Position numbers and translations under genes: made by a program. From Myxococcota bacterium (GTDB taxonomy: Bacteria; Myxococcota_C; UBA6777), in contig JAKLKB010000022.1 of assembly GCA_023150835.1 (NCBI GenBank), positions 3,388 through 67,387 of the forward strand: DNA of 64,000 nt. Direction: 5' to 3'. Below the pieces are notes generated by a model. It was not told where the DNA came from and searched no databases. It saw only the letters and a list, made by a program, of their open reading frames with translations. Below are positions 5,375-11,130 of the stretch, piece after piece (positions within the stretch are counted from its first letter, which is position 1; each line of letters begins with the position of its first letter).

Positions 5375-5584
5375 ATGCTGATGTCTACAGGTTTGAATCA
5401 TCGTACCCTCTCTGCACAAGACCGTATCCGCTACATCCGCAGCGCGGGCCCCAAGTGGAAAGCCAAGACATCGGCTTGTTCGTTGTACCTTGCCTTGTAT
5501 TCGATGTACAAAGTGCGCACGCCTCGGAGAATGTCGGATGACCGGCCCGCATGGCAAATCCACACACAAACATTCTCGGCGTGA
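5375..5584 (+). CDS. Small basic hypothetical protein
   Basis: 69 residues beginning MLMSTGLNHRTLSAQDRI. AGGAAAGAG lies seven bases before the ATG. The middle (RYIRSAGPKWKAKTSACSLY) is basic and amphipathic. The last 47 bases overlap the start of the next gene in another frame, suggesting coupling. I do not recognise a family. Codon use resembles the neighbours but the length makes this a tentative call. Confidence 0.45.
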   Translation: MLMSTGLNHRTLSAQDRIRYIRSAGPKWKAKTSACSLYLALYSMYKVRTPRRMSDDRPAWQIHTQTFSA

Positions 5585-7544
5585 ACTCTTTCAAGCCGTG
5601 ATGACGTTGTTGCGCCGCAAGATGCAACAGGTCGGCTATACTCCCGTCGTCATCGAACAAACTTGCGCTGCATGGGAACGCTTCTGTCAGATCGCCAAAC
5701 CACAGATCCGCTCCGTTGAAGCCTATGCTGCGGCGATGGAGTACGCCGCGATCTTGCGCTTGCGAGGTGGGCAGATCACCCAGCGCGCCGTCGCCGAACG
5801 CTACATGGTCAGCCAAGCCTCCGTCGCACGCCTTCACCTGCGCATCCTCAATTGCCTCGCCCCCCCTTCATCATCTTCCTCGCTCGAATCGACCTCCCCA
5901 TCGTCTTGCTCGCTCGCGACACCCTTTTTATCGCCATCCTCACACGAATCACTCCCACCCTCACCATCCTCTCAACAAAACACATCGATCTCATCGCCAT
6001 CATCGGCATCGTCGGCCTCTGCGAAGATCTCGGAGAAGGCAGCGGCATCGTCGGCCTCTGCGAAGATCTCGGAGAAGGCAGCGGCATCGTCGGCCTCTGC
6101 GAAGATCTCGGAGAAGGCAGCCGCATCGTCGGCCTCTGCGAAGATCTCGGAAAAGGCAGTATCCGCTGGATCGCTTGAAGACGGGATGTTTGGGAGGATG
6201 TCGGAGGAAGAACAAAGCGAAGAGCTGGCGAGGCTGCAAAGTTTGCCGATGGTTCGGGAGCGTTGGGGAGCGTTGTTGTTGCGGAGTGAGTCGGTGGCGG
6301 CGTTAGAACAACGGGATCTGCGGGAGTATTCGGATGTTGTACCGCCGTTGTTTTCTGCGTTGTGTGTGCGGCCTCGTCGTCCATCCGATCCAGAGGCAGT
6401 GGTGCTGGTGTGGATAGATCTAAGCCGCCGTCGGATCTTGGGGTGGTTTCCGACAGACGTTACACAGATGGCGCATCTATGGGAGTTGTCTTTGCGGCTG
6501 GTGATGGAACGTCCGTTGTATGGGATGCCACGCCGCCCTGTAGATGTGGTGTTGCCGGCGGTCACACCGTTCGACGGGATGGCGCAATGGCTTTCGCCGT
6601 TGGATATCCATTTGACGCCCTTGGATCGGCAAGAACTCGTTGCGCTAGAATCGTCGATATTGGGCAGTTTGTGTGAGGCGCCGTATTCGTTTGTAGAAGA
6701 AAACTCTGCGCGCTATCGAGAAGATCGGGAGGTGTTTTTTTCTTTGGCAGCGCGGGTTGCGATGGATCTAGGAGAATGGGCAGGAGAAGAGCTGTGTTTG
6801 TGGGGGAGAAGCGGAGATCTGGGGGGGGCTTTGTATCCCGAACCTGTAGGGCCTTGTGTGGGTCAGGATATCTTGACCGCGCTGCGGAAAGCGCGCAACG
6901 GTGTGAACAAAGGAGGGGCGTGGTGGTTTGCATGGAATCGCGGTGGGGAGGGCTTATTGTGTTGGGCCGCCCAAGCAGCCACGCTTGGGGGATATCTGGC
7001 GACGCACTTAGAACGCCGAGGGCTGCGTTTGAACCAACGCGCTCAACTGGCTCGTCTTGTCGAGCAACTTTTGCGCTTTGACGAACGCAACATCGAAACG
7101 CTTTCCTCGACATCTCCCATATCGCGCTCCTCCGCATCAACGGCTTCCGCATCGCGCTCCTCTGCCCCGACGGTCTCCACCACATCGGCCCCCGCCGCTC
7201 ATTTCTCGACAACATCGGCCTCTTCCGAAGGTCGGGTGATCTGGGAGATGCGCTTTCAGCGGGGGGCTGTACTCTCGGCTGCGTTGCGCCGCCATCTCTT
7301 CGAGGAAGGTTATGAGATCGCCCATGCACGGGCATTTCCGATGCTTTGTGTGCGCGAACTCACGTGCGGTTTGTTGCCTTTTACCGAATATCTCTGGCCT
7401 GCGGTGAATGGCTTCCTTGCGGATTGGGACACGCGATGCGGAGCGTTGTTGCGTGAACAACGCGCATCTCTGGCGTTGGACGTCTTGCCTGCCGAAAACA
7501 AAGAACACCCCCTCGGCTTTGCGTCGTTGTTGTCGCTTGGGTGA
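5538..7544 (+). CDS. Unknown protein with HTH-like N-terminus and two Ser-rich linkers
   Basis: 668 residues from ATG at 5538, with GGAGA seven bases upstream. Residues 1-105 are helical and contain a possible helix-turn-helix (QRAVAERYMVSQASVARLH). Residues 109-213 are a Ser-rich linker holding four 13-residue repeats (SSASAKISEKAAA). Residues 215-520 are a globular domain rich in Trp, Leu and Arg that I do not recognise; it contains VVLVWIDLSRRRILGWFP. A second Ser/Ala/Thr linker covers 523-563 and a small domain follows. The last twelve codons plus the stop lie in a 44-bp sequence duplicated directly downstream. No signal peptide. A DNA-binding role is only a guess from the N-terminus. Confidence 0.8.
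   Translation: MTGPHGKSTHKHSRRELFQAVMTLLRRKMQQVGYTPVVIEQTCAAWERFCQIAKPQIRSVEAYAAAMEYAAILRLRGGQITQRAVAERYMVSQASVARLHLRILNCLAPPSSSSSLESTSPSSCSLATPFLSPSSHESLPPSPSSQQNTSISSPSSASSASAKISEKAAASSASAKISEKAAASSASAKISEKAAASSASAKISEKAVSAGSLEDGMFGRMSEEEQSEELARLQSLPMVRERWGALLLRSESVAALEQRDLREYSDVVPPLFSALCVRPRRPSDPEAVVLVWIDLSRRRILGWFPTDVTQMAHLWELSLRLVMERPLYGMPRRPVDVVLPAVTPFDGMAQWLSPLDIHLTPLDRQELVALESSILGSLCEAPYSFVEENSARYREDREVFFSLAARVAMDLGEWAGEELCLWGRSGDLGGALYPEPVGPCVGQDILTALRKARNGVNKGGAWWFAWNRGGEGLLCWAAQAATLGGYLATHLERRGLRLNQRAQLARLVEQLLRFDERNIETLSSTSPISRSSASTASASRSSAPTVSTTSAPAAHFSTTSASSEGRVIWEMRFQRGAVLSAALRRHLFEEGYEIAHARAFPMLCVRELTCGLLPFTEYLWPAVNGFLADWDTRCGALLREQRASLALDVLPAENKEHPLGFASLLSLG
6004..6159 (+). 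repeat. 39-bp coding tandem repeat, 4 copies
   Basis: Four head-to-tail copies starting CGGCATCGTCGGCCTCTGCG, in frame, encoding a 13-residue Ser/Ala/Lys/Glu unit in the linker of the unknown protein at 5538-7544. The first three are identical; the fourth differs at two bases, so the expansion is recent. Each copy carries one GATC. Confidence 0.95.
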
Positions 7545-9342: not shown

Positions 9343-11130
9343 ATGGTGCGTCGATTGTATGAGATAAAAGAGCAGCCGCCGATGGGAGAAGTGCCTGAGC
9401 AGATGTACGCTTGGACAGTAAGGAAGGAGCGATATGGGGAGCCGAGGGAGGCATGGCGTTTGGAGGTGGTCGATGTGCCGATGTTGGGGGAGCATGATGT
9501 GTTGGTGTATGTGATGGCGGCGGGAGTCAACTACAACAACGTGTGGGCGGGTTTGGGAGTACCGATGGACGTGATCGCAGCGCGCAACAAAGCGGGCGAG
9601 TCAGAAGCGTTTCACATCGGGGGAAGCGATGCGTCGGGGATCGTGTACAGGGTGGGATCGAAAGTGAAAAATGTGCGGGTTGGGGATGAAGTGGTGTTGC
9701 ATTGCGGTCAATGGGATATGATGTGTCCGTATGTGGTATCGGGGGGCGACCCGATGTTTTCGCCGAGTTTTCAGATCTGGGGATACGAGACGAACTACGG
9801 GAGTTTTGCGCAATTTACACGGGTGCGTTCGGAACAATGCTTGCCAAAGCCCAAGCATCTGACGTGGGAAGAAGCAGCGGCGTATATGTTGGTGGGAGCG
9901 ACGGCATATCGGATGTTGCTGGGTTGGGGAGAACATTCGGTGCGCAAAGACGATGTGGTGTTGGTGTGGGGAGGTGCGGGAGGGCTGGGATCGATGGCGA
10001 TCCAGATCGCCAAGGCCAAAGGAGCGATCCCGATCGCGGTGGTGTCGAGCGAAAGCAAACGCGAGTATTGCATGAGTTTGGGTGCGAAAGGGGTGATCAA
10101 TCGCAAAGACTTCGATCATTGGGGGATGTTGCCGCATTGGAAAGATGAGGTGGGGTACAGTCGTTGGTTGAAAGGGGTGCGGAACTTTGGTCGGGCGATC
10201 TGGGATATCTTGGGGGAGCGGCGCAATCCGCGCATTGTGTTTGAGCATCCCGGGGAAAGCACGATCCCGACGTCGATGTTTGTGTGCGATACAGGTGGGA
10301 TGGTGGTGATCTGTGCGGGTACAACGGGCTACAACGCCACAGTCGACTTGCGCTACTTGTGGATGCGACAAAAGAGCCTCCAAGGCTCTCACTTTGCAAA
10401 CACCGAACAATCGGCAGGGTTCAATCAATTGGTGATGGAAGGTTTGGTGGATCCGTGTTTGTCGAAGACCTTTGCGAACGAAGAGCTGCCTGATGCCCAC
10501 CAACTGATGTACGAAAACAAGCATCCACACGGCAACATGGCGATCTTGATCGGTGCGCCGATGGAGGGTTTGGGCGTCTCGGCAGCGTTGCAAAAAGCCC
10601 GTGCTTCGGCAACCATTGAAGCTTCTGCCCCCGAAGAATTTTATATCCCTCCCCACCGCGAGATCGCCGAACCTCGGCTACCCCAAAGCCTCGAAGATGA
10701 CCCCGTTGTGAGCGAAGTGATGCGCCCTGACGTTGTCACGTGCGCCTCGCACATCAGTATCCGAGAAGCTGCACGCATGTTGTACGAGTACGATGTGCAA
10801 GGGATGGTGGTCACCGATCCCGAAGGATGGGCGGTGGGCGTGGTGTCGCAAACCGACGTTGTGCTGGCACGCCAAGGCCGCAGCGATCCAGAGATGGACA
10901 AGCTGACGGTTGCTGATGTGATGACGCCGCGTTTGATCGGCTGTCGCCCACATACCCGCGTATCCGAAGCCATCACCAAGATGACGCGCATGAAAGTCCA
11001 TCGCCTCGTGGTGGTCGAAGAACACGGCGACAAGCTCAAGGCCGTCGGATTGATGTCGATGCGCGCCATCGTACGCAGGATGGCTGGCGTCCCTCAACCC
11101 ATCCATCATGGCTCCCCTCCCACCCGCTAG
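9343..11130 (+). CDS. ccr: Crotonyl-CoA carboxylase/reductase fused to two CBS domains
   Basis: 595 residues. Residues 1-412 are a medium-chain dehydrogenase/reductase of the crotonyl-CoA carboxylase/reductase type, which makes ethylmalonyl-CoA from crotonyl-CoA, CO2 and NADPH. Signs are [28 protein letters not shown], the nucleotide loop GGAGGLGS (210-217), [17 protein letters not shown], and LQGSHFAN with His350; Asn near 65 and this His match positions known for CO2 binding. Known enzymes end near residue 420-450. Here a linker (413-450) leads to a CBS pair (about 456-510 and 522-581). CBS pairs usually bind adenine nucleotides, so the fusion suggests control by energy charge. AAGGAGG lies eight bases before the ATG. 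No other ethylmalonyl-CoA pathway gene is in the window, so supply of extender units or acetate assimilation are both open. Confidence 0.9.

Follow-up and report, generated by a model that had tools for sequence, protein, structure and literature searches.

Crotonyl-CoA carboxylase/reductases (CCRs) rank with the fastest enzymes that fix CO2 (PMC12632816). In the window, the 64,000-nucleotide stretch of Myxococcota DNA analyzed here, one gene appeared to join such a reductase to a pair of CBS domains. The locus raises the question of whether the two parts really form one protein, whether the reductase part is still equipped for carboxylation, and whether the CBS pair may act as a built-in sensor, a structural module or neither.

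Organization of the CCR-CBS gene

The gene (window 9343-11130, plus strand) is a single uninterrupted ORF of 595 aa starting with ATG, preceded at close distance by a strong ribosome binding site (aaggaggaaag). The same ORF resides on contig C151 of the source genome (7.56 Mb, 239 contigs), where it is found as a single copy. Residues 17-413 match TIGR01751 crot-CoA-red, the curated equivalog model for crotonyl-CoA carboxylase/reductase, over model positions 4-397 of 398, scoring 590.9 bits against a cut-off of 378.55, and Pfam recognizes in the protein ADH_N, ADH_zinc_N and two CBS stretches (CBS 70.8 bits, cut-off 24). One intact ORF matched by TIGR01751 and by two Pfam CBS stretches bears out the original prediction of a CCR fused to a CBS pair. 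The 145 extra residues then counted are right for the CBS pair alone (residues 452-595, approximately), the tail past the reductase being 183 residues long when the linker is included (Table 1). Neither a frameshift nor a mis-assembly can be the source of the fusion, as the ORF is single and both halves are conserved in 33 other fused sequences, one of them partial.

Composition changes strongly along the gene. G-ending codons account for 50% in residues 1-343, C-ending codons for 36% in residues 344-595. The GC skew, about +0.4 at first, drops to 0 around 10,370, a point that lies within the CCR domain and away from the domain junction.

Table 1. Features of the CCR-CBS gene, with positions in the window
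Feature	Position	Strand	Basis
CCR (MDR/ECR) domain, residues 1-412	9343..10578	+	TIGR01751, Pfam ADH_N + ADH_zinc_N
Asn65 codon, equivalent to KsCcr Asn81	9535..9537	+	alignments to 3hzz, 6na3
Tyr148-Glu149 codons, equivalent to KsCcr Phe170-Glu171	9784..9789	+	alignments to 3hzz, 6na3
His350 codon, equivalent to KsCcr His365	10390..10392	+	alignments to 3hzz, 6na3
Flexible linker, residues 413-450 (~38 aa)	10579..10692	+	pLDDT, low conservation
CBS1, residues 456-509, motif S502-Q-T-D505 followed by LARQGR	10708..10869	+	best Pfam CBS stretch
CBS2, ~residues 523-580, degenerate S572-M-R-A575 (S-M-T-D in relatives)	10909..11082	+	second Pfam CBS stretch

The reductase half and the CO2 pocket

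The solved structures closest to the CCR domain of the window are CCRs and ECRs (61% identity to 9kva, 55% to AntE 4y0k, 54% to 4gi2). In KsCcr of Kitasatospora setae, CO2 is held by N81, F170, E171 and H365, and is oriented by Asn81 (PMC10966969). These residues were mapped by sequence alignment from the window protein to the S. collinus CCR 3hzz, and from this to KsCcr 6na3, whose chain index exceeds the published numbering by 2; their equivalents are N65, Y148, E149 and H350. A Tyr at the position of Phe170 is also found in the solved CCR 4gi2, the enzyme of Methylobacterium extorquens. The Asn is present in all aligned sequences (33 fused, 61 unfused), as is the His, and position 148 is either Y or F across the 33 fused rows. 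Position 149 is E in 33 of 33 fused rows; the unfused rows (n=61) feature E in 48 cases, Q in 12 and D in one.

A doubt raised at the outset was that active-site residues might be altered enough to exclude carboxylation. This is not so, because the equivalents of all four CO2-pocket residues are present, Y replacing F as in the M. extorquens enzyme. Judged by its sequence, the CCR half would carry out the NADPH-dependent reductive carboxylation of crotonyl-CoA to ethylmalonyl-CoA.

Both the M. extorquens enzyme (4gi2) and KsCcr (6owe/6na3-6na6) share with the window CCR the MDR fold and the pocket Asn, Tyr/Phe, Glu and His, but their solved chains (443-449 aa), unlike the window protein, end after the reductase fold and have no CBS tail. 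ECR 9kva and AntE 4y0k, the closest solved CCR-fold chains, likewise lack a CBS tail. In 9kva, Asn stands at the Glu position (GYNTN), and the His is conserved but precedes GTN in place of FAN.

Fold, motifs and putative role of the CBS pair

In the full-length AlphaFold2 model the linker is disordered (pLDDT <50 at 419-451) and the CBS pair is ordered. Overall confidence in this model is only moderate (pLDDT 72.6, with values <50 in some stretches of the reductase), and therefore no inference is drawn on the packing of the CBS pair against the reductase. Modelled alone with 29 relatives, the CBS pair reaches a mean pLDDT of 88, and resembles MJ0100 (solved with SAM/MTA; Z 18.7, rmsd 2.0, 124 residues aligned), CcpN (Z 18.3, rmsd 3.5, 137 aligned), AcuB (solved with AMP/ADP; Z 18.0, rmsd 2.0, 126 aligned) and CBSX2 (solved with AMP; Z 17.7, rmsd 2.9, 125 aligned). 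The pairs of AcuB, CcpN and MJ0100 are thus among the structures most similar to the tail (Z 17-19), several of which were solved with AMP, ADP, ATP or SAM; they have no CCR part, and are 18-25% identical to the tail. Ligand identity does not follow from the fold, because matches within Z 1 count as tied.

The ribose-phosphate motif (G-h-h-S/T-x-x-D) is present in CBS1 as G499-VV-S502-Q-T-D505. T504 and D505 are conserved in 34 of 34 fused tails, S502 in 32. The aspartate of the CBS2 motif is found in 33 tails, and is replaced by Ala (A575) only in the window gene, the CBS2 of which (S572-M-R-A575) fails the motif. A ribose-phosphate motif is not required of every CBS domain. To judge from the motifs, each CBS pair of the window lineage retains no more than one canonical nucleotide site. 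Near-invariance of T and D in CBS1, and of D in CBS2, suggests that a ligand site has been kept. The conserved CBS1 motif and the nearest structures favor an adenosine-containing ligand, probably adenine nucleotides.

We consider it fairly likely that the protein is a CCR of the ethylmalonyl-CoA (EMC) pathway with a tethered C-terminal Bateman module, which would sense an adenosine ligand and gate entry into the pathway according to energy or redox state. From the motifs and the fold we infer that the CBS pair may sense a ligand and regulate the reductase. The ligand would be AMP, ADP or ATP in the first place, SAM, NAD(P)H or CoA species being further possibilities; dimerization of CBS pairs in the CCR oligomer would favor or hinder the cycling of subunits between open and closed forms, and entry into the EMC pathway would thereby track the energy or redox state. 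A counterpoint to a sensor is that most CCRs work without a CBS tail. In IMP dehydrogenase a CBS pair is inserted inside the TIM barrel, not at the C-terminus, and the catalytic fold is unrelated to that of CCRs. This enzyme is likewise an oxidoreductase with a CBS pair, which senses purine nucleotides according to PMC11303537 and PMC5454003.

Divergence is faster in the CBS part than in the CCR part (35-48% vs. 69-77% identity), and the linker is 11-36% identical to those of the other fused loci found in the one-genome-per-species scan described below. In close pairs, dN/dS of the CBS part is mostly about 0.04-0.28 (0.38 in one tandem pair), values that speak mostly for purifying selection, as a rule less strong than that acting on the CCR part.

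The rapid divergence of the tail would also suit a structural or assembly module, joining CCR oligomers into higher assemblies or tethering them to EMC enzymes or PHA granules, with no sensing of metabolites. CBS pairs commonly dimerize, the linker, about 38 aa long, is disordered, and one ligand-site Asp is missing in the window copy, all of which would fit such a role. We nevertheless hold it unlikely, as the residues invariant in CBS1 and the CBS2 aspartate present in all tails but one point to a kept ligand site, and pairs binding nucleotides or SAM are among the best structural matches.

A575 is found also in the near-identical contig L043 of the sister MAG KLAP109, and is thus no sequencing slip of one assembly. 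In this contig (1-1005) the CCR-CBS sequence begins only at codon 490, inside CBS1, and is directly preceded by a minus-strand ORF which by eye looks like a TnpB-type transposase; the break stems either from a transposon-like insertion or from contigs joined at a repeat during assembly. A change unique among the 34 tails and shared by the sister contig, together with a sister sequence broken inside CBS1, could mean that the CBS pair of the window lineage is a remnant in decay, its CBS2 motif lost, and that the protein functions simply as a CCR. This is quite improbable, since the ORF has its full length, Pfam recognizes both CBS folds, the pair is modelled with high confidence, and CBS1 retains its motif.

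Distribution and origin of the fusion

The notion that the fusion is peculiar to the window sequence did not survive: 33 other fused copies are spread across several phyla, which brings the fused tails to 34. A scan of one genome per species yielded 41 loci, of which more than 20 carry the fusion, and the rest of the 34 were added by later searches. Fused genes reside in Gammaproteobacteria (Competibacter, Contendobacter, others), Alphaproteobacteria (Defluviicoccus, Caenispirillum, others), SAR324, a delta/Myxococcota MAG, and two other genomes of the small phylum of the window, five genomes of which were examined. The fusion is carried by 4 of the 121 CCR-bearing genomes of Alphaproteobacteria (385 genomes searched), 3 of 4 in Gammaproteobacteria (369 searched) and 2 of 6 in the SAR324 phylum (52 searched). 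CCR-CBS is a conserved but minority architecture in several phyla. No plasmid record covers 80% of the query.

Alphaproteobacterial CCRs with long frames were considered as additional fusions and rejected in all cases checked, the extra length being an N-terminal overhang and the tails spanning 3-14 aa only. Two alphaproteobacterial genomes (loci L018 and L132) have a pair of CCR-CBS genes in tandem. Caenispirillum carries an unfused CCR besides its fused one.

In the free tree, fused rows are scattered over several places of a region that lacks resolution. A tree in which fused rows were constrained to one clade, which also took in L027 and L090, both without a CBS part, scores 15.9 log units above the free search and is not rejected (AU p 0.72). 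A single origin is thus compatible with the data, though unproved, and the CBS pair was probably gained once in a CCR subfamily. Repeated independent fusions need not be invoked, given the higher score of the constrained tree. MAG sequences labelled Accumulibacter (L015) and Kineosporiaceae (L012) are placed within the Competibacter-like group of the tree; they may be mis-binned.

Genomic context and the EMC pathway

In genome G002 the order of genes is acyl-CoA ligase, ccr-cbs, DUF6986, mcd, mch and ecm, where mcd denotes an acyl-CoA dehydrogenase of the size and type of methylsuccinyl-CoA dehydrogenase, mch a mesaconyl-CoA-hydratase-like MaoC protein, and ecm a methylmalonyl/ethylmalonyl-CoA-mutase-type protein, names assigned at the level of family and by operon logic. 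Genome G003 has the same run from ccr-cbs onward, SAR324 the same core cluster plus meaB, Competibacteraceae the order ecm-meaB-ccr-cbs. A gene resembling PIG3-type quinone oxidoreductases directly follows ccr-cbs in Competibacteraceae (L010:6650-7690).

EMC genes are absent beside ccr-cbs in the window, where the neighbors are manA upstream, and an AarF/UbiB-like kinase gene followed by carAB downstream. An ORF at window 5490-7544 features tandem repeats of the unit SASAKISEKAAAS and has no NCBIfam match. In the source genome, contig C170 ends in a group of three genes, those for an HpcH/HpaI lyase, mcd and mch. No ecm was found in this genome, perhaps because C170 stops just beyond mch, and the gene presumably sits in an assembly gap; in a genome of the same genus (G001) the contig breaks at the same spot, and ecm and meaB are found on another contig. 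Isocitrate lyase was not found in the five genomes of the phylum, controls being recovered. The EMC genes of the source genome, along with the failure to find isocitrate lyase, fit the EMC pathway as the route of acetate assimilation. Synthesis by CCR-CBS of alkylmalonyl-CoA extender units for a polyketide synthase, instead of a step of the EMC pathway, would match some solved relatives (AntE, CinF), but is highly improbable given this gene content and given that the annotated conserved neighbors in relatives are ecm, meaB, mcd and mch, with no polyketide synthase among them.

Genome G004 has an EMC cluster (meaB, ecm, mch, mcd, HpcH lyase) followed by a gene for an MDR protein of 384 aa (L175:11916-13067, minus strand, contig C8). 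This protein resembles the window CCR at only 26% across 271 aa, and scores far below the TIGR01751 cut-off. A canonical CCR was not found in this genome, and the MDR protein is possibly a divergent replacement CCR.

Novelty and significance

A fusion both common and already characterized was to count against the original prediction; the fusion is recurrent, but no characterization was found. CCRs, CBS pairs and oxidoreductases regulated by CBS domains, as IMP dehydrogenase, are already known. A CCR with a putative built-in ligand-sensing module appears new, no paper on a CCR-CBS fusion having been found in the open-access literature (subscription journals fell outside the search). Papers combining the ethylmalonyl-CoA pathway and a CBS domain turned out to deal with lysine acetylation and phenol use.

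The EMC pathway has been proposed as an anaerobic redox outlet and as a source of propionyl-CoA for PHV in glycogen- and polyphosphate-accumulating bacteria (PMC8956781, PMC12604563, PMC9041414); CBS is not mentioned in the main text of these three papers. Since the pathway has been assigned such roles, an energy or redox switch at the CCR step would make sense. The idea may be extended, tentatively and with more doubt than confidence, to the whole CCR-CBS clade, including the wastewater glycogen accumulators Competibacter, Contendobacter and Defluviicoccus: the enzyme might be an energy- or redox-sensing CO2-fixing reductase, in which the CBS pair switches the supply of propionyl-CoA and PHV between anaerobic and aerobic phases. 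If this is true, a CCR equipped by nature with a sensor domain would be a regulatable carboxylase, and would offer a testable explanation of how the EMC pathway is controlled in glycogen- and polyphosphate-accumulating bacteria.
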